Under the pieces are notes generated by a model. That model was not told where the DNA came from, did not search any database, and worked only from the letters and a program-made list of their open reading frames with translations. Made by a program: the position numbers and the translations under genes. A DNA stretch of 46,569 bases from the NCBI RefSeq assembly GCF_000607165.1, contig NZ_JFZG01000033.1, positions 1 to 46,569 on the forward strand, written 5' to 3'. How positions within the stretch are numbered: the stretch's first letter is position 1; every line of letters starts with the position of its first letter. Shown here in pieces: positions 8-30,498 of this stretch. The DNA comes from Ralstonia pickettii (GTDB taxonomy: Bacteria; Pseudomonadota; Gammaproteobacteria; Burkholderiales; Burkholderiaceae).

Positions 8-1933
8 ATGCTGAATCGAATTCTGAACAGGGGTGAGGCGAGCGTGAATCGCGCTGAGCCGGTCATCGGAAATCCCGTGGACATCGTTTCGTCGGGTGCT
101 TGGGTGCCCCCGTCGTCTCCCGGTGGGACTCCTCAAGGCACGGTAACGATCGATTCCGACGCTGCCGAGATTGCAACGCCGCGCATTGGTCCTCAGGACC
201 GCGATGCTGACGACTCGGTGGTCATCTCCACTGTTGACGCGCTTCCGCTCTTTACACGCAAGATGTATGACGACGATCTGGTCCAGATGCCGCCGTCCAT
301 GCGTCAATGTGTTTGTCCAGTGGAGGTGTCCCCGCCAAATGCTGAAGGTAAGAAGCGGGGCGAGTACGCCATCATTCTGACCAAGGACATGCGAAACGAC
401 GACTACGTCGAGGAGCTCGTTGCGCACTTGGCAGTCAAGTGGGACCTTGTTGCTGATGGCTATCACATTGCCTCTGATCAGGTACTGATTGATCTCGCAC
501 GCGACCGGGTGATGGAAAATCGTCGGCGCAAGTCTGCTGCTGTGTCGCTCGAGCAGAAGAACGCAAGCGCTCTTTACCGGCAGTTCGAACTGATGGGCGA
601 GTTCTCGATTGCAAATGAGGCCTCGGACTTGCATATCGAAATGAACCGCCGGCAGGCGAAATCTCAGGTCTCGTTCCGAATCCACGGAAAGCTGGTGCAG
701 CCGCCCGAGTTTTGGATCGACACGCATACGTTGCTGGACATGGTCGCGTACCTGTACAACAACAAGTCGCAGAATGGATCTCACAACTCGTACAACGAGA
801 ACATCCTGCAGCAGTGCCAACTGCAGTTGAAGATTCAAGGCCGTGAGGTTCTGTTCCGTTGGGCGTCAGGTCGGACCGCGCTCGGTAGCATCGTTGTGCT
901 GCGCATGTTGTTCCAGGATGACATGCAAAGCATCAAGTCTCTCGAGGAGCTCGGCTACTTCGACCAGCAGATCCATATGTGGCGGAACGCAATCAGCCGT
1001 CACAAGGGCGGAATCACTGTCGCTGGAATCGTCGGCTCGGGGAAATCGACGACCATGCAGACCAACATGGCCGGTCTTCCCGCTACGATGGCCAAGTACA
1101 CGGTTGAAGATCCGGTCGAGTACTTGATTCCTGGCGTACGCCAATTCAACGTGTCGCGTTCCCTGACTGATACGGAAGGCGATTCATTTATTGGCTGGAA
1201 GCGGCAGTTGAAGCGTATGGACCCCAGCGCAGTCCTTGTTGGTGAGTGTCGTGATTTGGAAAGCGCCTCGATGTTCCGTGACATTGTCGAATCCGGCCAC
1301 CTTGGGTTCACTACGGTTCACGCTCCGTCACACATTGGCAGTATCGACCGCTTTTGTTCGTCGGAGTTGGGGATTCCCCGTGAAGTCATGGCGACCCCTG
1401 GGTTCATGAACTTGCTTGTTTACCAAGCACTCGTGCCGATCAACTGCGAGTGTTGTAAGGAATTCCCCGCAACTCGAGTTGCTAGCCCGGAGTATTTGCA
1501 TCGCCTTGAACGCCTGTTTGAGATCGACGTTGACGGCATCTTCATAACGAATCTCCACGGGTGCGAAAAATGCCGCAAGCCAGGATTAACTGAACTCAAT
1601 GGCATTGCCGGGCGTAAGGTGGTCGCCGAGATGCTTGAGCTCGATACCTACATGCTGGAGATGATCCGCGATCATCGGAACATCGATCTGATCAAGTACG
1701 TCAACAAGCAGCGCACAGCAGGTTTCAACGAGGAAGACTCGGTCGGTAAGTCGGCAATGGAAGTTGCTATGTATCGCTGCTCGCGAGGCGAAGTGTCGCC
1801 CTTTGAAATCGAAGAGAAGTTTGGCACCTTCGAGCAGTATGAGAGCGAGCAGCAGCGCTTTGGTCTGGGAAAATTCGCCGGTGCGCAAGAGCGGTTTGAC
1901 TCCCTGCAGAGGAACTGGGGGGTTGTCGCATGA
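8..1933 (+). CDS. pilQ: PilQ-type pilus assembly ATPase (GspE/PilB family)
   Basis: Cytoplasmic hexameric ATPase that powers assembly of a type IVB conjugative pilus. Visible signatures are a Walker A motif at residues 340-348 (GIVGSGKST, K346), a degenerate Walker B segment VGECRD at 411-416 with E413, and downstream histidines in the TTVHAPSHIG segment. Two Cys groups near 480-483 and 519-522 match the zinc-binding C-domain of the GspE/PilB family. The length (641 aa) is somewhat above R64 PilQ because of a long N-terminal extension of about 90 residues. The ATG directly follows a TAA at 5-7 that probably ends the preceding pilus gene. Its stop overlaps the pilR start by 4 bases (ATGA), so the two are translationally coupled. 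Confidence 0.93.
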   Translation: MLNRILNRGEASVNRAEPVIGNPVDIVSSGAWVPPSSPGGTPQGTVTIDSDAAEIATPRIGPQDRDADDSVVISTVDALPLFTRKMYDDDLVQMPPSMRQCVCPVEVSPPNAEGKKRGEYAIILTKDMRNDDYVEELVAHLAVKWDLVADGYHIASDQVLIDLARDRVMENRRRKSAAVSLEQKNASALYRQFELMGEFSIANEASDLHIEMNRRQAKSQVSFRIHGKLVQPPEFWIDTHTLLDMVAYLYNNKSQNGSHNSYNENILQQCQLQLKIQGREVLFRWASGRTALGSIVVLRMLFQDDMQSIKSLEELGYFDQQIHMWRNAISRHKGGITVAGIVGSGKSTTMQTNMAGLPATMAKYTVEDPVEYLIPGVRQFNVSRSLTDTEGDSFIGWKRQLKRMDPSAVLVGECRDLESASMFRDIVESGHLGFTTVHAPSHIGSIDRFCSSELGIPREVMATPGFMNLLVYQALVPINCECCKEFPATRVASPEYLHRLERLFEIDVDGIFITNLHGCEKCRKPGLTELNGIAGRKVVAEMLELDTYMLEMIRDHRNIDLIKYVNKQRTAGFNEEDSVGKSAMEVAMYRCSRGEVSPFEIEEKFGTFEQYESEQQRFGLGKFAGAQERFDSLQRNWGVVA

Positions 1934-3084
1934 AAACCATGCTTGCTCGATTGCCATTTGGCAGAACGACCGCGACATCCGATCCGACAGCCGGTCGCGG
2001 TCTATATCTTGCAATACTCGACTTTAAACAGCGCCGGGGGGAGTTCTACGGGGATTTGGCTGGGATTATGGATGCCCAGCCTGGCCGGAACATCCGGGAA
2101 TTGCTTGAGCCCTATGTTGAACGGTATGGCTCCTTGCCGGAAGGCAAGCTCGCGGCGTTTTGGCTTCAGCGAATGGACGAGGACGTTGCTACGTTCTCTG
2201 AAGCGCTCACCGGGACCGTCCCATCGGAAGACCTAACCGTTCTTTCCTTTGCCGAGCGAGCAGGTGATCTCAAGGTTGGTTTGAAGCAACTCTCAGAAAG
2301 CATTCTTGGAATGGAGGCCGCGAAGAAGGTCGCACGCACTGTTTTGATGACTGCAGTTGCAGCCATTGTGATCTTCCACGTCTTCCTTGGCGTTGAAGGT
2401 TTCGTGCTCATGCCGCGACTTTTGAGAACGATCGGGGGGATGATCCCACCCGAACAGTGGGGCCCAGTTGGCAAGTTATTCAACACAGTTGGCGAGTTTA
2501 TTCGCAGCTGGGGCTGGGCAGTTCTCGCGCTCGAAGCGCTGGCAATATGGTGGGTCAAGTGGTCCTTCCCAAACTATGTCGGGAAACTCCGCCCGTGGCT
2601 CGACCGAAACTTTCTTCCCTATCAGTTCTACAGAGACTTTCGCGGGGCGTCATTCCTGTCTTCGCTCGGAGCGGCCACTACGAAAGTCGGGACCCAGGTG
2701 CAGACAGTTCCAGACGCTTTGGAAAAGATGGAGCCCGAAGCTTATCCCTGGCTGAGATGGCACATCAAGCAGATCCTCGACAACTTCGAGCAGGAGCCTA
2801 ACGCGAAGGGCGAAGCGTTCAATACAGGAATAGTCAACGATCGAGCTTACTACCGGATCGTTGACTTGGCCTCGTACAACGATATGTCGACCATGCTTGG
2901 CAAGGTCGGTGAGATCGTTCGTACGACGGCGCCGGTCGAGATGCAGAAGAAGGCCACCACGCTCCGATACATCGTTGTTATTGGCGTCATTCTGCTGATG
3001 ATGAGCTTCTACTTCGGAACGTTCAAGATGGGCGATGAGTTCAAACAGATCATCCAGTTGAACATGATGATGCGTGGCTCTTGA
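1930..3084 (+). CDS. pilR: PilR-type inner-membrane pilus platform protein (GspF family)
   Basis: Polytopic inner-membrane platform on which the PilQ ATPase acts during pilus extrusion. The 384-residue protein has a soluble N-terminal GspF-like helical domain (about 20-130, with the typical SFAERAG segment near 106-112), two hydrophobic segments near 136-160 and 193-210, a second cytoplasmic domain with LASYND, and a last membrane helix near 346-366. This is the usual three-helix arrangement of GspF/PilC/PilR. It overlaps pilQ by 4 bases. Position between pilQ and a prepilin gene matches R64 and PAPI-1 pil operons. Confidence 0.9.
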   Translation: MKTMLARLPFGRTTATSDPTAGRGLYLAILDFKQRRGEFYGDLAGIMDAQPGRNIRELLEPYVERYGSLPEGKLAAFWLQRMDEDVATFSEALTGTVPSEDLTVLSFAERAGDLKVGLKQLSESILGMEAAKKVARTVLMTAVAAIVIFHVFLGVEGFVLMPRLLRTIGGMIPPEQWGPVGKLFNTVGEFIRSWGWAVLALEALAIWWVKWSFPNYVGKLRPWLDRNFLPYQFYRDFRGASFLSSLGAATTKVGTQVQTVPDALEKMEPEAYPWLRWHIKQILDNFEQEPNAKGEAFNTGIVNDRAYYRIVDLASYNDMSTMLGKVGEIVRTTAPVEMQKKATTLRYIVVIGVILLMMSFYFGTFKMGDEFKQIIQLNMMMRGS

Positions 3085-11382: not shown

Positions 11383-12885
11383 ATGAGATCTGAGATTGAC
11401 GATGCCGGCGAGACGATTCCCTACGCCCACAAGCACCGCTCCAATGATGCCGAGGTGAATGAGGGGAAGGCGGTCTGCCTGGCTGACTTCTGGCCAGAGC
11501 CTGATTGGAAGCTGTGGATCGATGAAGGGCGACCGTGCGAGGTCGTGGCCAAACTGGCGGTCCTCTATTCAGGATTTGCCAGCCGCCCTAAATCGGGCAT
11601 GAAAGAGTGCAGTGCTCGCGACTGGCAGATTGCCTTCGAGCGGGCTGCTCCCCTCATCCGAGATCTCTTCGAGCGTGCTCGGACTGTTGCAGACGTGGAA
11701 CGCATGCCGAATGATCTCGCCTGCGCGGCAGGATTCGAACTTCCCAACCTGCCTAACCTCTCCTTGCGTGATCGGGGCGTCCAGGTATTCCTTGCGCTGG
11801 GCCGGGGATCGCGGCGATTGCGCGGGCCATTCAACCTGACGTTGCGCCAATTGGCTCTCGCAACCTGGCTGCCGGATCTCGGATGGCCTGAAAACGCCCA
11901 CGCCTTCGATTCGGCCATCGTCCCCGTGAAACTCACAGACGGCACCTGGGCCGTCGGGCGGGTGGAGGGGAACCGCTACACATTGCTCGCCGAGAAAATC
12001 CTGACCAGAGCAGAGGCATTGGAGTCAGCCCGTCAACACATTGCGAAAGGCACAAGCGCGGTCGGTGCCGGCAGGGCCGCTCGAGCGCGGGAGATTGAAC
12101 GGGTTGGCGCAGACCACCGGAAAGGGCGAGACGTCACGCCAGAAGAGTTGATGGGCGTGTTTGGCTTCCGCGGCATCCAGTTTGGGGAATCCTTGGGACA
12201 GGCCGAGCGGCAACTGTGGGTCAACGAGCTCTATGACGCTTTGCACGATCTGGCCGCCTTTCTCGGCTTGAAGCCACGTTGGATCGGGCTCAAGGGGCTG
12301 GCGCTGGCCGTAGGGGCGCGCGGCGTCGGGCGGGCGCTTGCCCATTACGAGCCCGGGCTGCGTTGCTTCAATTACACCCGCAAGCGCGGTGCCGGCTCGG
12401 TGGCGCACGAATGGTGGCATGCCTTAGATGCCTATCTCGTCCAGTGGGTCAACCCTTCCTACTTCAGGCTTGCAGATGGTTACCTGTCATTGCACGATTG
12501 GGCCTTCCCAGCCGCATCACACCCATCGGCGCCTAAGTTGCTCCCAGCGTTGCGAGAGATCTTGAGCTTCACCGGAAGGACAGGGCAGGCGTCCGAGTTC
12601 CTCCGAGACGCTTGGAAGATTGCGGGAATGCCACGCCAGGGTGAGTACTGGTATCAGCGCCACGAGATGATTGCCCGGGCGTTCGAGGCGTATGTCCAGG
12701 ATGGCTTGGCCGCACGAGGCCAAATCAGCCCCTACCTAGTATTGGGCACATCCCAACAGGAAATGGCTGAAGAGGATGCGGACCTTCGGGCGTACCCAGT
12801 GGGTGAGGAGCGGCTTGCACTCAATGGGTATTTCGACGCGATCTTTGCGGCGCTTCGAGGTATTGCTCCAGCTGGCGGCGCTTGA
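11383..12885 (+). CDS. LPD1-domain protein with HEWWH metallopeptidase-like motif
   Basis: 500-residue protein with a clear ribosome-binding site (GGGAGGAG) upstream of ATG 11383. Residues 258-350 match the large-polyvalent-protein-associated domain LPD1: VFGFRGIQFGE, then RQLWVNELYDALHDLAAFLG, GARG near 311-314, AHYEP near 320-324 and GAGSVAHEWWHALDAY (337-351). The HEWWH (342-346) with D349 resembles a zincin active site. LPD1 proteins are known mostly from phages and conjugative elements, often fused into giant polyvalent proteins, and are thought to be delivered with DNA or to act on host proteins. Here LPD1 is a stand-alone gene with a unique N-terminal half. Activity is inferred, not shown. 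Confidence 0.75.
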   Translation: MRSEIDDAGETIPYAHKHRSNDAEVNEGKAVCLADFWPEPDWKLWIDEGRPCEVVAKLAVLYSGFASRPKSGMKECSARDWQIAFERAAPLIRDLFERARTVADVERMPNDLACAAGFELPNLPNLSLRDRGVQVFLALGRGSRRLRGPFNLTLRQLALATWLPDLGWPENAHAFDSAIVPVKLTDGTWAVGRVEGNRYTLLAEKILTRAEALESARQHIAKGTSAVGAGRAARAREIERVGADHRKGRDVTPEELMGVFGFRGIQFGESLGQAERQLWVNELYDALHDLAAFLGLKPRWIGLKGLALAVGARGVGRALAHYEPGLRCFNYTRKRGAGSVAHEWWHALDAYLVQWVNPSYFRLADGYLSLHDWAFPAASHPSAPKLLPALREILSFTGRTGQASEFLRDAWKIAGMPRQGEYWYQRHEMIARAFEAYVQDGLAARGQISPYLVLGTSQQEMAEEDADLRAYPVGEERLALNGYFDAIFAALRGIAPAGGA

Positions 12886-23517: not shown

Positions 23518-24879
23518 CTATGCTGCTGCGTGGCGCTCCAGACGTGCACGGGCGGACGCCACCATGGGTTGGCTGTTGAAGAAGGCCAACAAGTTTTCCT
23601 TCTGCCGGGCAGTGAGTTTCGACTCTTCAATCATCTGCGGCCACGCCTTGACCGCGTTTTGCACGGTTTGCATAACGACTGTGGCCAAAGGTTTCTCGGG
23701 CAAGCCTAGGTTCTCGCTGAATCTGCGTAGGATTGTCGGACTCAAGCGCTGCTTCGGTGCAGGCTTATCCTTTGGCGGCGGCGGCAAGAGTTCTGGCGGG
23801 ATGATGTAGAGCCCGTGCCCTTGGCGGTTGTTGTAGGCGCTGTAGGCCACGATATCGTACGCTGGCGAAAGCGTTGGGCTTACACCGTCCAGGTAGAGCA
23901 CACCGATGTTCTTGATGTGCATGTCGGGGTTTCCCAGCAACTCGTTCACGGTGATCCGGCGCAGCAACTCATGGATCGCCGGTTCGCCAAGTGTGGGTTC
24001 GTCCAACATGACGGCGGCAATGTCGAAGTAGCTCGAGCGGTATTTGTTCTCGGGCTGAATCTCCAGAATCTGCCCGAAGTCTTCCGCGTGGATACGGCCA
24101 CCAGGGGACCGATCAAATCGCGTGACGGCCAGAAAGTTTGTCTTGCCGGTCGTTTCATCCCCCAAGTCGTAATTGTGCTCAACGGCGAGCTTTTCCAACG
24201 GCTCGAGCGTGACCTCGCATACCGTGACGCCGGCTGCGGCTGCAAGGCGCAGGGAAAGGTCTTCAAGTTCCGGGAGGAGGGCGTAACCAACCACCGGCAG
24301 CTTGGCGATGATGTGCGTGTCCTGCAATTTGGTACGCGCCACGTAGCGGTCGCCTTCCTTCAAGACGCCCAGCTTGGCTTGCATGCCTGATACCGACATG
24401 CCGTCCTCCATCGGCTCAGCGACTACGCTCATTTCGAGCGAATCAGCGTCCTGTGTGACCAGGTGAGCGACCTCCTGGAAGTCGAGCTCAACGGGACGCG
24501 CGGAGACGTTACCAGGCAGGTCTCGCCCCGTGGCAGCGAGCATTTCAAAGTGATCATCCGGTTCGCACTTGCGTTCCGCTGCGATGTGGTCGCGGAACAC
24601 GCCCTCCGGCAGCAATCCCTGAAAGAATGCCGGGAGGAGGAAGGCGTCCTTTTTGGCCGAGTAGCTGCCGTTGAATACCGGCTGGGTGACATCTGCCCAG
24701 AACGCGCGCTGCTGAGCAGGGTCTGCCGCCTGCATAGAGAGGGAGAGCGTCGGCGGTTGCGGCAGGTCGATGTAGTCGTCGCTCGCGACGAAGCGAATGA
24801 TCGGGTCATCCGTCCCGTACTTGAACAGGGTGCCGACACGCAGCGTGCCGATGTTGATTGCCAGGGCGCGAAACAGCAT
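23518..24879 (-). CDS. hipA: HipA-type Ser/Thr kinase toxin
   Basis: Type II toxin-antitoxin kinase; E. coli HipA phosphorylates glutamyl-tRNA synthetase and causes persistence. The 453 residues include the SGMQAK loop (164-169), the catalytic GNPDMHIKN segment (316-324, D319) and PAYD (339-342) in place of DFG, all HipA hallmarks. A proline-rich insert (about 362-376, PPELLPPPPKDKP) is unusual. The ATG overlaps the antitoxin stop (TGATG) with GGGAGG upstream, so toxin translation is coupled to antitoxin. The target may differ from HipA of E. coli. Confidence 0.9.
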   Translation of the reverse strand: MLFRALAINIGTLRVGTLFKYGTDDPIIRFVASDDYIDLPQPPTLSLSMQAADPAQQRAFWADVTQPVFNGSYSAKKDAFLLPAFFQGLLPEGVFRDHIAAERKCEPDDHFEMLAATGRDLPGNVSARPVELDFQEVAHLVTQDADSLEMSVVAEPMEDGMSVSGMQAKLGVLKEGDRYVARTKLQDTHIIAKLPVVGYALLPELEDLSLRLAAAAGVTVCEVTLEPLEKLAVEHNYDLGDETTGKTNFLAVTRFDRSPGGRIHAEDFGQILEIQPENKYRSSYFDIAAVMLDEPTLGEPAIHELLRRITVNELLGNPDMHIKNIGVLYLDGVSPTLSPAYDIVAYSAYNNRQGHGLYIIPPELLPPPPKDKPAPKQRLSPTILRRFSENLGLPEKPLATVVMQTVQNAVKAWPQMIEESKLTARQKENLLAFFNSQPMVASARARLERHAAA

Positions 24880-25259
24880 CACGCGCCTCCCTTGCGCACA
24901 CGTGCCAGTCGCGCTTGGACTTTGCTTTGGATTCCCGAAGTCCGTTCCTTTCCGGATTCGCTACCTCGGAGTGAGGCCTTCAGACCATCAATGCGGAGTT
25001 GTGGGCGCTCAACGGTCGAACGGGCACTATTCCCGGACGGAAACATTGCACGCGCCTCTTTGGGTACCAACACCAACTCCAAGCCAAGCCGGTCGGCCAC
25101 CGCCATGAGCGTGGACACTTTGAAGTCTTGGTCGCCGCTCAGCACGTGGCTGAGTGTCCTGTATGTGACTCCTGCGTCGGCGGCGAGCTGCATCTTGCCG
25201 TACCGACGCTTGCTCGCGCGCTCGGCGAGCGCCTTCGAAACTTCGCCCAAAGTGATCAT
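24879..25259 (-). CDS. hipB: HipB-type XRE antitoxin
   Basis: 126-residue antitoxin and repressor. An XRE helix-turn-helix occupies about residues 18-62 (MQLAADAGVTYRTLSHVLSG, then TLMAVADRLGLELVLVP). The C-terminal 60 residues are basic and disordered, longer than in E. coli HipB. It precedes hipA with a 1-base overlap. Five copies of a TACTTTAGTA dyad upstream, one just before its start, show strong autoregulation. Confidence 0.88.
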   Translation of the reverse strand: MITLGEVSKALAERASKRRYGKMQLAADAGVTYRTLSHVLSGDQDFKVSTLMAVADRLGLELVLVPKEARAMFPSGNSARSTVERPQLRIDGLKASLRGSESGKERTSGIQSKVQARLARVRKGGA

Positions 25260-27133: not shown

Positions 27134-27353
27134 TCTTCACTCTCAAGATGGTTTGCGCGGGCATTGCGCCGTGGCGCCGATCACAGATCAAACGATACCG
27201 AACAATGTTCGGCGTTCAAGCCTGCCCAAGAACGGTTTGAAGGTGGAGAAACAAACAGATTCCTGTTGGGAATTGTCGTGCTATCCTTCCAACGAATTCC
27301 AACGGTAGCTGGGCCGAATGCCAGCCTGCCGCTGCCAACCGGCTGCGGTTCTA
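27134..27353. promoter_or_regulatory. Divergent control region with CCGAAC dyad
   Basis: Between the minus-strand XRE operon and the plus-strand leader. CCGAAC-AAT-GTTCGG (27198-27212) is a perfect 6-base-arm dyad. A second imperfect inverted pair (GTTGGGAATT near 27266, AATTCCAAC near 27294) follows. Likely holds both promoters; I could not place confident -35/-10 boxes. Confidence 0.45.
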
Positions 27354-27440
27354 TTCACCGCCAGGTGGATCTCTTCAACCCATGCGGGGCTAGTGACCCC
27401 ATGGGGCGCCTGCTTCGCTGATTCCTTTTCGGAGCAGGAA
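27354..27440 (+). promoter_or_regulatory. Structured leader A, sequesters the ribosome-binding site
   Basis: Three stems: TTCACC/GGTGGA (27354-27359/27364-27369); CCCAT-GC-GGGG with CCCC-ATGGG (27379-27383, 27386-27389/27397-27405, loop CTAGTGA); and CCTGCTTCG/CGGAGCAGG (27409-27417/27430-27438), which buries the ribosome-binding site GGAG. A homologous leader lies at 28748-28837, with a changed base preserving pairing (ATGGG becomes GTGGG). It should keep translation off until a ligand, protein or temperature opens it. Confidence 0.65.
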
Positions 27441-27791
27441 ATGTCGATCAATAAGCTTCACCCGCATGATGTCCAGGTAACTGGAGGCCTTCTGTCGCTG
27501 GTGCTGGTGATTCGCAACGCTGCAGTGCTGTACCAGTCCGAAGCGGTCATGGCTCACCTCCTCGAGCTGCCGCTGCCCAAACCAAGCGATTACTTGATGC
27601 GTTGTAAGGACTTGTTCTACAAGACCTATGCAGAGCAAGTGACGAAGGTCGGGCTCTCTCTGGATGACGCTACTTTCCAGGCAATCGTTCTCGGACGGCT
27701 GCCGGCAGAGGTGGTGGATGCGAAGTTCGGTGATTTGGAAGCGAACTGGGTGTTCAATCCAATCCGCCGCGAGACGTGGCGCAAGCTCTAA
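27441..27791 (+). CDS. Hypothetical protein under leader A, 116 aa
   Basis: Soluble helical protein (LLSLVLVIRNAAVLYQSEAV, CKDLFYKTYAEQVTKVGLSL, DDATFQAIVLGRLPAEVVD). The start ATG directly follows the ribosome-binding site held in the leader hairpin. No family recognised. The elaborate leader suggests its level must be tightly controlled. Confidence 0.65.
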   Translation: MSINKLHPHDVQVTGGLLSLVLVIRNAAVLYQSEAVMAHLLELPLPKPSDYLMRCKDLFYKTYAEQVTKVGLSLDDATFQAIVLGRLPAEVVDAKFGDLEANWVFNPIRRETWRKL

Positions 27792-27943
27792 TGCAAGCCG
27801 CACCGTGCCCACAATCGACATTTGTCGGCTGTGGGCATCGTGTCACCTTCGATTCAACAGAGGATCTGCCGAGAATGAGCAGGCTCTTTCCAGAAATTCC
27901 TGGAAAGAAATTGTGACGGTCTGAGCAGTAGCATCAACGCCTT

Positions 27944-27990
27944 GGGGCACGAGTTGCCCTGATGGGGTTTGCTCGTGCTCCTTTCAGGAG
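27944..27990 (+). promoter_or_regulatory. Leader B, two mutually exclusive structures
   Basis: GGGGCACGAG (27944-27953) can form a 10-pair stem with CTCGTGCTCC (27972-27981), one G-T pair, with a small CCC/GGG hairpin inside. Alternatively CTCCT (27978-27982) pairs with the ribosome-binding site AGGAG (27986-27990) across TTC, while GGGCA/TGCCC (27945-27949/27955-27959) closes the upstream half. The two folds share CTCC, giving an on/off switch for the gene at 28001. Confidence 0.55.
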
Positions 27991-28000
27991 GGGTACGGAA

Positions 28001-28588
28001 ATGAACATGAAATCGGACACGGCAGAGTTTGACACCGAGATCGTCGGGTTGAACAAGCGGCAGTTGACGGCGCGGGTGCTGACGATGGAGCAGGAACAAG
28101 CCAAGCGTGAGCAGCTGCTTGGAGATCCTGCCAGGCTGGCCGAGTACGCGGTAGACAAGGGTCTGCCAGTCAGCGAAATGCGAGAGTTGCTCCAGGCTAA
28201 CCACCGGAACAACGCTCCGCGCCTCGCGCGGTACAAGGAAGTTCTTGCAATCAAGCCCGATGCTCGGCGTGTGCAATTCGGTTGGACGGAATTGCCGCCC
28301 GATGCAGTGTTTCCACCCAGTGTCGGTGACCAGCATCAATCACCTGGCGTGGCCAACCGAAATCAGAGTGCAGACACGTCGCATTTAGTGGCACTCCATG
28401 AGCGCTTATTGCGTGAGCGCGCCCGGCTCGCAACAGCCGGATCCGAAGAGGAAAGGGCTGTGCGGCAGGTATGGGTCGCTCAGGCTGAGCGCGAGCTCGA
28501 GGGCGAACTGAAGTTCCTCGGCATGGATGGCGGTACTGAGGTTGCCGAAATCAGTGACGATGATGTGCTGGCTGAGCTTGGGAAGTAA
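28001..28588 (+). CDS. Hypothetical protein under leader B, 195 aa
   Basis: AGGAGGGG ribosome-binding site lies in the switchable leader. ATG 28001 is chosen over an upstream in-frame start that would remove the leader. Highly charged and helical, with two probable coiled coils (ARVLTMEQEQAKREQLLGD near 25-43 and LHERLLRERARLATAGSEEE). No membrane segment; function unknown. Confidence 0.65.
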   Translation: MNMKSDTAEFDTEIVGLNKRQLTARVLTMEQEQAKREQLLGDPARLAEYAVDKGLPVSEMRELLQANHRNNAPRLARYKEVLAIKPDARRVQFGWTELPPDAVFPPSVGDQHQSPGVANRNQSADTSHLVALHERLLRERARLATAGSEEERAVRQVWVAQAERELEGELKFLGMDGGTEVAEISDDDVLAELGK

Positions 28589-28635
28589 CCCGCCGGGCCA
28601 GGTTTCAGCGGCCAACCTCCAGAGACGTCGACATA

Positions 28636-28650
28636 GGTAACCAGGTTTAC
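28636..28650. repeat. GGTAACCAGGTTTAC site, copy 2
   Basis: Identical over 15 bases to 12959-12973, here extended to GGTAA-CCAGGT-TTACC. It lies 100 bases upstream of leader C, in the place expected for a promoter or operator. Confidence 0.4.
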
Positions 28651-28747
28651 CGACGAATCGCGGAGGTCGTCCGTTTTGCAGGGAGCTCGCCGGCGCAGTA
28701 GCCGCCGGATTGAAGCCAACCAACGCGGCCTCTGAGCCGCGGTTCTG

Positions 28748-28837
28748 TTCACCACCTGGTGGACGTCTTTAACCCATGCGGGGCTTGTGACCCCGTGGGG
28801 GCACCTGCTTCGCAATTTTCTTTGTAGGAGCAGGAAT
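28748..28837 (+). promoter_or_regulatory. Structured leader C, homologue of leader A
   Basis: Same order of stems: TTCACC/GGTGGA (28748-28753/28758-28763), CCCAT-GC-GGGG with CCCC-GTGGG (28773-28783/28791-28799, loop CTTGTGA) and CCTGCTTC/GGAGCAGG (28804-28811/28827-28834) covering the ribosome-binding site. Stems are conserved while loops differ from leader A (CTAGTGA/CTTGTGA; GCCA/ACCT), the pattern of a conserved RNA. Confidence 0.65.
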
Positions 28838-30121
28838 ATGCTGAACATCAAGCCCGAGTCGAGTACCCAAGTCGTAATCGAGCCTTCCGGCCTCAACGTC
28901 AATCGCGTGCTCGAGGAGGGCACGCCGGAAGTCTCGCAAAAGCCGACGAACGACTCTTCCTTTCCAGACCGTGTGCGATTTAACTGGGGATTCCACGATG
29001 GAACTGCCGAGGCAGAGCGGGCAAAGGTACGTGAAATGGATCAACATCCTGATCGTGTCTATGCCGCGGGCTATGTCCGTGGCGTACTGGCCTGGAAGAA
29101 TCTGGGATACCGACCTGAAACAAGCGATGAAGCGTGGTCAACATTCCAGGGACATCGTGCCGGGCGGGCAGATGGAGAAAATCCGGAAAACGAAATCCCA
29201 GGCCCCGGAGAGTGCCAGACCTATCTGTACGATGACGGGACCGATTCGGGCTTCATCATTCGAAATGAAGGGAATGGCCTCTTCAAAGCGGAAGAGTGGC
29301 GCAACGGTGATATTGCTGACATCACGTATGGACCATACGCGCAGATGAAAGCGTGGACCGACACAGAATCGTCTTCCCACAATGCCTGGCGTACAGCAAA
29401 CGGCTATGGCTCATTGCCGCTGCGCACGCTCAGCGAGTTATACGGGCTTTGGGATGCCCTCCGCGACGTCCCCGTTACCGAGGATGGCCGCAATCTTGAC
29501 GGGGCGTTCCTGCACTTCTCCAAGGGTGTCGAAACGGAGACTGTTTGGCGCTGGTTTGAGGCACAGAACCCGAAGTTCATCGTGGGCGACGTGCAGCGAG
29601 GCATCCGGCACACAGCTTCCAATCAGGAAAGCGCGACAGTTTCGCAGGTAGCACGAACGCCATGGGAGCGTGATGACGTCCAGTTCCCGCGGCTGCTGGC
29701 CGAGATCCTGGCGACCCAGAATTCGTTGGACAAGAAGGCCCTGGCGGACTCCATGGGACTGTCACTGGAGCAGGTAGCGACTCTGTTCGATCGTGCCGCA
29801 GCAACCTGGGAGGCTTTCCAAGCAAAATCTGCATTGGAAGCAAACGGAGCCTCGAGTACCCCGGGATTAACCGAGGTACGAAAAGCCGTGCTGCAGTACA
29901 CGGTATTGCACGACGACGATATCGACCTCTCCACGATTTCGTTGGAGGAAATTGGCAAGGCCTGCCGAGAGGGCGGCTACATTGGGGGAGATCTCATCGT
30001 GGTATCGGATGAGCATCTGACCCAGTCCCAGTTGGATGTCGAAGCAGCAAGGCTCGGCGCAGATCCCACGTTCTTTTGCATCGAGGGTGACGACGACGCC
30101 CCCGCGCCACCTTCGTTCTGA
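28838..30121 (+). CDS. Large hypothetical protein under leader C, 427 aa
   Basis: ATG 28838 lies just after the leader hairpin; the frame is open upstream, but that part is the leader. The region RFNWGFHDGTAEAERAKV, followed by YAAGYVRGVLAWKNLGYRPE and an FQGHRAGRADG segment, looks like one domain, and the part around 265-345 (LLAEILATQNSLDKKALADS, LSLEQVATLFDRA) like a helix-turn-helix. C-terminal residues are acidic. No signal or membrane segment. Soluble, possibly DNA-interacting; family not recognised. A strong terminator follows. Confidence 0.7.
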   Translation: MLNIKPESSTQVVIEPSGLNVNRVLEEGTPEVSQKPTNDSSFPDRVRFNWGFHDGTAEAERAKVREMDQHPDRVYAAGYVRGVLAWKNLGYRPETSDEAWSTFQGHRAGRADGENPENEIPGPGECQTYLYDDGTDSGFIIRNEGNGLFKAEEWRNGDIADITYGPYAQMKAWTDTESSSHNAWRTANGYGSLPLRTLSELYGLWDALRDVPVTEDGRNLDGAFLHFSKGVETETVWRWFEAQNPKFIVGDVQRGIRHTASNQESATVSQVARTPWERDDVQFPRLLAEILATQNSLDKKALADSMGLSLEQVATLFDRAAATWEAFQAKSALEANGASSTPGLTEVRKAVLQYTVLHDDDIDLSTISLEEIGKACREGGYIGGDLIVVSDEHLTQSQLDVEAARLGADPTFFCIEGDDDAPAPPSF

Positions 30122-30146
30122 AGGTAGTCTTCAACAAGCCATCACG

Positions 30147-30185
30147 CCCGCCGTGGGTCCCACTAGGGGCCCCGGCGGGTTTTTC
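30147..30185 (+). terminator. Factor-independent terminator after the 28838 gene
   Basis: CCCGCCG (30147-30153) pairs with CGGCGGG (30173-30179), followed by TTTTTCTTTT. Closes the leader-controlled block. Confidence 0.85.
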
Positions 30186-30207
30186 TTTTGGGCTAACCGA
30201 CCGAAAA

Positions 30208-30498
30208 TCGTGCCGCTGCGCGATTCCAGAAAGACCTTCGGCTGAAGCGCGGAGGGCTGTAAGTGCAGGACGGACGCTCTTCCGCATCGTCAAGATGCAC
30301 CAATCTCGTTTCTGAGTTGATACGGTCCACGCTGAAGTTCCATGGCGAACTGCCGTTAATGCTCTTTGGCCGCGAATTTCGGCGTTTGCAGGCCCTAGAA
30401 TGTCGGCAATCTTCGAGCAAGATGTGGGATACCGAGGGTGGACCCGAGCAGAAGCGCTCCTGTTGCGCTCTCGGGCCAGAACTCAAAGGAAAAGAATC
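30208..30498. repeat. Long duplicated leader, copy 1
   Basis: Similar, in order, to 39206-39480. Shared blocks include ACGCTGAAGTTCC, TTTGCAGGCCCTAGA and GAGCAAGATGTGGGAT, ending at the AAAGGAAAA ribosome-binding site of the next gene. TAGAAT (TAGATT in copy 2) may be a -10 box. Probably the control region of a cassette run; no credible protein in it. Confidence 0.65.

Follow-up and report, generated by a model that had tools for sequence, protein, structure and literature searches.

Multi-copy leaders of proteobacterial mobile elements resemble a two-state translational switch

The leaders described here are a real sequence unit that recurs in many copies on mobile elements, and they look like a translational switch whose two states are supported by co-evolution of the pairing segments. 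The window, that is, the whole analysed stretch of 46,569 nucleotides of Ralstonia pickettii DNA, had been given a first-pass annotation that described two homologous structured leaders, each with a final hairpin burying the ribosome-binding site of an unrelated gene. The central feature absent from that static picture is an alternative helix, in which the strand that hides the Shine-Dalgarno (SD) sequence pairs with a segment further upstream. We consider it probable, from comparison of the copies, that the leaders are cis-acting two-state translational switches made of a chain of segments, a to f, anchored at the SD.

The two leaders at 27354-27440 and 28748-28837 are real, with stems as previously described. 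Leader DNA of copies 1 and 2 aligns at 84% identity over query bases 1-97 (E = 3.9 × 10−21), and a pattern written from both matched the window exactly twice and none of 100 shuffles. Stem changes keep the pairing (CCCAT with ATGGG or GTGGG in the two leaders), the final hairpin pairs CCTGCTTC with GGAGCAGG, which contains the SD, and the 116-aa and 427-aa products are indeed unrelated (best BLASTP E = 2.2). The fold of copy 1 alone is not special (z = −1.38), because 20 of 200 shuffles fold equally well; for copy 2, z = −3.16. In each copy GCGGGGC (27384-27390; 28778-28784) can also pair with GCTTCGC (27412-27418; 28807-28813), a pairing that rules out stem 2 as well as the SD hairpin. Directly before the gene sited between copies 1 and 2, a search of the window with covariance model R2 (see below), filters off, revealed a third copy at 27933-27994, which is diverged (21.6 bits, E = 0.006); its duplexes were computed at −17.4 (b:e) and −12.6 (e:f) kcal/mol, with a fold z of −3.08 for 27925-28010. 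The next R2 match in the window (11.3 bits, E = 1.1), in which most of the model is deleted, was taken as noise. The features are as follows.

27303..27326, + strand: 5' element CGGTAGCTGG..CCAGCC of copy 1, resembling the 5' end of the Rfam DUF3085 RNA
27354..27369, + strand: P1 hairpin of copy 1, from the fold; by eye like the last radC RNA hairpin
27374..27438, + strand: switch module, copy 1 (R1 70.5 bits, in the R1 seed; R2 63.4 bits)
Copy 1 segments, + strand: a AACCC 27377-27381; b GCGGGGC 27384-27390; c CCCC 27397-27400
Copy 1 segments, + strand: d GGGG 27403-27406; e CCTGCTTCGC 27409-27418; f GGAGCAGG 27431-27438
27441..27791, + strand: gene of copy 1, 116 aa, no known family (Pfam run on the longer ORF 27318-27791: none)
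27933..27994, + strand: switch module, copy 3, diverged (R2 21.6 bits)
Copy 3 segments, + strand: b GGGGCACGAG 27944-27953; e CTCGTGCTCC 27972-27981; f from 27987
28001..28588, + strand: gene of copy 3, 195 aa, no known family
28748..28763, + strand: P1 hairpin of copy 2, from the fold
28768..28834, + strand: switch module, copy 2 (R1 77.9 bits, in the R1 seed; R2 71.4 bits)
Copy 2 segments, + strand: a AACCC 28771-28775; b GCGGGGC 28778-28784; c CCCC 28791-28794
Copy 2 segments, + strand: d GGGGG 28797-28801; e CCTGCTTCGC 28804-28813; f GGAGCAGG 28827-28834
28838..30121, + strand: gene of copy 2, 427 aa

Elsewhere in the window, 23518-24882 (− strand) encodes a HipA-like protein (HipA_C 136 bits, Couple_hipA 64.5 bits), a possible toxin of a toxin-antitoxin pair, and 11383-12885 (+ strand) has a CLCA_X family match of 132 bits against a cut-off of 260. 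The frame 8-3084 (+ strand) encodes a GspE/PilB-like ATPase, with matches below the curated cut-offs; the PulF-like protein encoded after it has 78% identity to a pBN2 protein and less than 60% in 1171 of 1172 plasmid records, 897 of the 1172 being predicted to be conjugative.

Further copies were collected with a loose motif scan, which used neither the b:e nor the e:f pairing, of contigs C33 and C34 of the window genome and of contig G005:C4 of a relative; it gave 28 distinct matches, 22 of which were accepted by eye. Covariance model R1 was built from 12 of these 22 copies, picked for good alignment (set A2), and model R2 from 79 matches, 78 of them distinct (alignment A4). R2 was run over 74 loci, some of which overlap, so that many of its 184 matches at E ≤ 0.05 represent a copy already counted; alignment of the best 150 left 124 distinct modules of at least 48 bases. 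The segment consensus is UYAACCC for a, GCGGGGC.. for b, CCCCG for c, GGGG for d, YTGCUUCGC for e and GGAGCA, the SD, for f. These segments appear to allow two mutually exclusive folds: state A, with helices a:d, b:c and e:f, and state B, with b:e enclosing c:d. The SD-hiding strand e pairs either with f or with the upstream b, and b can pair with c as well. We read the segments as a chain that starts at the SD, where GGAG of f fixes CUYC in e, and this in turn GRGG in b, CYCC in c, GGGG in d and CCC in a; the extra A residues of segment a may remain for a binding partner to read. Over the 124 copies the modules fold with a mean z of −4.0, and 116 lie below −2.

We compared the pairing of each segment with its own partner to its pairing with the segment of another copy, a partner-swap test (5000 permutations) that needs no alignment. 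For the 22 copies accepted by eye, none of the 5000 permutations was as good for b:c, b:e or e:f, and 182 were for b:f. All 28 distinct scan matches, unselected, gave z = −5.6 for b:c, −8.4 for b:e and −6.9 for e:f (0 of 5000 in each case), with z = −1.9 (181 of 5000) and −0.4 for b:f and c:f. Counts on R1 or R2 matches lean towards b:e because both models were built on structure B, a lean of which these two scan-based tests (22 and 28 copies) are free. The 37 distinct megaplasmid copies gave z = −5.9 for b:c, −11.0 for b:e and −9.4 for e:f, and −1.2, −0.4 and 0.1 for b:f, c:e and c:f, respectively. When segments were swapped only within a locus, using the 50 of 75 non-megaplasmid copies that lie in loci with at least three copies, the corresponding values were −4.7, −7.8 and −6.3, with 0.4 for b:f, −2.5 for c:e (32 of 5000) and −0.2 for c:f. 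As judged from these sequences, b:c, b:e and e:f co-evolve, whereas c:f does not and b:f hardly does; it is this co-evolution that makes the leader look like a two-state translational switch.

Two-sided changes in the alignments point the same way for most helices. In A2 (12 copies), 6 pairs have two-sided changes under state A, compared to 1.6 in shuffles, and 6 under state B, compared to 2.5. In A4, structure B has 108 two-sided cells vs. 31.7 in shuffles and 11 of 13 pairs with two-sided changes vs. 5.6, both counts coming from an alignment that was fitted to B. Structure A has 91 two-sided cells in A4 vs. 38.3 in shuffles; its 7 pairs with two-sided changes do not exceed the shuffles (6.4). 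The a:d helix has no two-sided change in the A4 alignment, so that covarying pairing with d does not account for how nearly invariant AACCC is. Covariation in a larger alignment, which the first-pass annotation had set as a test of its proposal, was accordingly found, both by the swap tests for b:c, b:e and e:f and as two-sided changes. Taking a translational switch to be marked by mutually exclusive helices that both covary, one of them holding the SD, we find this combination in the leaders, most weakly for a:d.

Energies were predicted with RNAfold for 112 copies, using the modules alone and leaving aside upstream domains, Mg2+ and ribosomes. With f present, A is predicted to lie below B by a median of 5.9 kcal/mol and is the lower state in 100 of the 112 copies; it is not lower in 12, and the gap is at most 3 kcal/mol in 26. 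With f left out, as if transcription had stopped before the SD, forbidding b:e costs a predicted median of 3.3 kcal/mol (more than 1 in 86 of 112). A would accordingly be the resting fold of the finished RNA and B the better fold just before the SD is transcribed. On these predictions the SD would be made when B is still favoured, and completion of the RNA would shift the preference to A, which gives a built-in interval of time unless one of the two states is held in place. The predicted stability of A in 100 of 112 copies, and the fact that no ligand or factor is known, would also suit a hairpin that merely lowers translation, with b:e as an intermediate or scaffold without regulation. We consider this improbable: b:e covaries above the other helices (z = −11.0 and −7.8, and −8.4 in the scan matches), which a static hairpin does not need, and radC-type domains lie directly upstream of some copies. 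The first-pass annotation had also named a thermosensor among the possible functions; an RNA thermometer is disfavoured, by prediction alone, as the median accessibility of the SD stays low in the 112 copies (0.006 at 20 °C and 0.025 at 45 °C, with means of 0.111 and 0.128).

Between e and f lies a loop rich in U (42%) and poor in G (8%), which would suit ribosome loading when the loop is free. A U-rich stretch behind b:e could also form an intrinsic terminator, with A as the antiterminator. A run of at least four T within 8 nt after b:e occurs in 36 of the 124 copies, at least six T of eight in 15, and of 8 terminator-like matches in the region (3.3 in shuffles) two fall in copy 2, at 28795-28813 and 28798-28811. 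However, 88 of the 124 copies lack such a run, so that termination is not general; copy 1 has no match in the terminator scan, and read-through would meet an mRNA with its SD hidden in A. We therefore hold transcription attenuation to be a poor candidate, with a low probability, and retain the translational switch as the preferred reading.

The search for further copies by covariance model that the first-pass annotation had suggested yielded many, at least 31 in the window genome and 39 on pBN2. In the window genome (5.75 Mb, 38 contigs), R1 gave 35 matches at E ≤ 10, all on contigs C31, C33 and C34; with two antisense partial and two weak matches set aside, 31 have E ≤ 0.05, a lower bound, with 150 of 2221 first-look candidates scored. 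Contig G005:C4 of the relative (341,809 bases) has counterparts of these leaders. Two wider surveys with R1 used stricter filters, which lose weak matches. Across the class, 11 of 274 genomes had a match at E ≤ 0.01, one of them being the window genome (G000) itself; across the family, 11 of 299 did at E ≤ 0.001, again including G000 as well as G005. R2 at E ≤ 0.1 identified 39 matches on pBN2, 7 on pWTJH2, 2 on a B. contaminans plasmid and none on pQBR103, although the latter carries a distant relative of the 427-aa protein. At E ≤ 0.01, seven genomes had 28, 6, 12, 29, 21, 3 and 23 R2 matches (150 candidates scored in each), with all 29 of the Pseudomonas genome G599 on one contig and all 23 of G604 likewise, and each of seven plasmids, two of them alphaproteobacterial, had 1 to 8. 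The module is thus present in beta- and gammaproteobacteria and on two alphaproteobacterial plasmids.

An exact leader pattern gave 11 stretches in genome_contigs, assigned to Paraburkholderia (3), Corticibacter, Pseudomonas, Sulfuritalea, Burkholderia, Herbaspirillum, Acidovorax, an unclassified proteobacterium and Streptomyces. The Streptomyces stretch (L118), a doubtful candidate, scores 23.7 bits with R2 but was chosen by the pattern itself, and the motif scan found no leader with a start codon there; the same scan also missed L116 and L123, both of which are R1-positive. A blastn search of PLSDB with leader 1 gave no match, and exact radC-core and leader patterns gave 0 stretches each in 2.9 million viral contigs. 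Given the distribution of R1 and R2 matches and these two exact-pattern searches of viral contigs, both empty, the element seems to be one of plasmids and integrative elements.

On G005:C4, 36 of the 37 leader matches lie on one strand, compared to 63% of 390 non-overlapping ORFs, with a p-value (8 × 10−7) that is not independent because genes sit in operons. Such a bias would also be expected if the hairpins acted in the incoming single-stranded plasmid DNA as Frpo-like promoters. According to the cited part of one paper, anti-defence genes of leading regions lie on the T-strand, some of them behind Frpo, which they can use (PMC11541004), and the leader sequence also folds as DNA (z = −2.7 and −2.0). 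Against this, the SD itself forms the 3' strand of the module, which ends at the start codon, and alternatives centred on the SD make sense in RNA; moreover, a linear scan of 27150-30220 for unfolded promoters found no sigma-70-like match where 1.0 was expected. We regard a single-stranded DNA element as very unlikely, and an RNA switch remains our reading of the module.

What lies upstream of the module differs between copies. We identified ten radC RNAs above the Rfam cut-off in seven plasmid loci and one more in locus L100, and for 8 of these 11 an R2 match begins 4-30 nt past the end of the radC model, three of the eight matches being weak (E = 0.09-0.15) and six coming from three related Stutzerimonas plasmids. 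In two other radC loci (L161 and L162), R2 with filters off scored at the right place only at chance level (5.1 and 7.8 bits), and in a third (L164) a search without filters gave no score there. By eye, all three have a diverged chain (CCCCAGGAGGG..) behind the radC RNA; the L161 duplexes were computed at −17.9 (b:e) and −16.6 (e:f) kcal/mol, and a hairpin over the SD appears in the folds of L161 and L162, but not of L164, whose stretch ended right behind the SD. Like the radC RNA (RF01754), the leaders sit before plasmid or ICE genes (STY4534/DUF3577, RadC), and its last hairpin resembles, by eye, P1 of the window leaders. Unlike them, the Rfam model leaves the switch module outside, and RF01754 has no match in the window at the gathering threshold and none in 27250-28900 at E up to 10. 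In a table of 2010 by Weinberg, the radC RNA is marked 'Y' (certain) as an RNA, 'y' (probable) as cis-regulatory and '?' (uncertain) as a switch (PMC2864571).

The DUF3085 RNA (RF02959) has a consensus that begins CGGuAGCUGG and ends CAACCCacCGGG, corresponding to the 5' element and segments a-b of the window leaders; this likeness is judged from the Rfam model, which stops at b, without c-f or the SD, and its matches lie below the gathering score. In the window it matches 27303-27388 with 17.9 bits, vs. a gathering score of 40.6 (E = 3.6). Twelve matches were found on pBN2 at E ≤ 10, the best with 25.6 bits and none over the cut-off, and 10 of these, including all 8 with E < 0.3, end inside the start of a leader. 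Weak matches of this kind are common, occurring at E ≤ 10 in 13 of 19 records, none of which exceeds the gathering cut-off, and in 8 of 14 control genomes; overlap with leaders was compared in pBN2. GGTAGC occurs within 200 nt upstream of 30 of 121 copies, compared to 7.0 expected from mononucleotide shuffles, and the 60 nt upstream of the modules fold better than shuffles (mean z = −1.29, with 70 of 122 below −1). Searches of 143 genomes of the class with RF02959 and RF01754, and of 185 genomes with PF11284, gave no match, the controls being likewise silent, and a radC region gave none in ecoli_genomes. The DUF3085 gene is stated often to adjoin radC in the passage cited (PMC12826799). The claim that the RNA is undescribed is thus right only in part: we found no description of the two-state module among open-licence PMC papers, but the region upstream of it is the Rfam radC RNA in some copies, and at 10 pBN2 leaders the DUF3085 RNA matches below threshold.

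At the match end, 119 of the 124 distinct copies (from the best 150 of 184 matches) have a start codon that opens an ORF of 30 codons or more, and 117 of these are ATG; an earlier set of 112 copies had 105 start codons, 103 of them ATG, compared to 17% ATG in random windows of equal width. The 119 downstream proteins, of which 10 are truncated where their locus ends, group into 90 BLAST clusters at E = 10−4, the largest having five members. With 119 of 124 copies abutting a start codon and 90 protein clusters behind them, the proposal of a conserved leader able to bury the SD of unrelated genes is supported. BLAST relatives of the 427-aa protein in three other loci, L116, L127 (pBN2) and L128 (pWTJH2), also sit behind a module. 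All 119 proteins were scanned for known families, and the counts given here, from listings of 25 families out of 30, 108 and 38, are lower bounds. Among the families listed, those with several members are DUF3150 (3), DndC-like (3), C5-cytosine methylase (2), DpdA (2) and SNF2 helicase (2); single ones include RadC, the ArdC N-domain, the antirestriction family PF03230, N6/N4 methylase, DUF3577/STY4534, DUF3275, DUF932, PRTRC ParB and others. Since no more than 38 pairings of a protein with a family can be read from the Pfam table, 81 or more of the 119 have no Pfam family at E = 0.001. The known families include antirestriction, DNA methylation, RadC, ParB and ICE replication, which point to genes used while establishing in a new host, an 'establishment regulon' that rests on a minority of the proteins because at least 81 of 119 lack a family.

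In the switch that we propose, state A would combine a:d and b:c with e:f and enclose the SD in a stem, turning translation off, and state B would form b:e around the small c:d hairpin, leaving a (UYAACCC) and f single-stranded and turning translation on. According to the fold predictions, nascent mRNA would pass through the SD-free state B before settling in A. How long B lasts may depend on a factor that acts on the domain upstream (radC-type, DUF3085-like or a short hairpin), on UYAACCC or on both, and such a factor could thereby co-ordinate dozens of plasmid genes. We advance only tentatively, and with some doubt, a further idea: some 30-40 leaders of an element may be flipped together by a single signal that is either absent or present only on entry into a new cell. 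Sensor domains of several kinds (radC RNA, DUF3085-like element, short hairpins) would then be joined to the one shared module, which would time a burst of establishment and anti-restriction proteins; if true, this would be an RNA-level counterpart of zygotic induction.

As to candidate triggers, G000 and G005 have no match to PF02599 (CsrA) or PF04352 (ProQ) at E ≤ 0.001, and neither protein is therefore a general partner; of the other six records searched, five have a ProQ match and one a CsrA match. Both proteins were rejected as a general trigger. In the Pseudomonas genome G599, the contig with all 29 leaders also encodes a CsrA homologue (G599:C44:35006-35164). On pBN2, the Burkholderia sRNA ncS54 (RF02871, 60.2 bits) lies at L127:9470-9552 beside umuDC-like genes, and by eye it has no GGGTT complement of the AACCC motif. 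A stalled ribosome on a leader peptide, in erm-type attenuation, would follow the same pairing logic (1:2 and 3:4 vs. 2:3), but a plausible upstream ORF ending near segment a occurs in 22 of the 124 copies compared to 21.8 in shuffles; with no excess of ORFs, a leader-peptide attenuator was rejected and is extremely unlikely.

A two-state module of this kind would give the orphan radC RNA, and probably the DUF3085 RNA, a common output and a testable mechanism. It suggests translational co-ordination of dozens of unrelated genes by some of the large plasmids and integrative elements of Proteobacteria, it bears on how such elements briefly switch on establishment genes after entry, and, used as a marker, it picks out hypothetical proteins as candidates for a role in establishment. 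Erm-type attenuators and the expression platforms of translational riboswitches are built of helices that exclude one another, the SD lying in the last. The window leaders share this arrangement but, unlike those systems, have no leader peptide and occur in up to some 30-40 copies per element before unrelated genes. Another comparison is with EGeRS1 of the pLS20-family Bacillus plasmids, the mechanism of which is given as unknown by its authors (PMC8708921). EGeRS1 differs in being 400-600 bp long, Gram-positive and present in five copies on pLS20, and two-state pairing does not figure in the cited part of its description (PMC8708921). The likeness to the leaders lies in the structured sequences themselves, which, according to the same part of that paper, are repeated before several establishment operons and reach the ribosome-binding site, with ardC among the genes served (PMC8708921).
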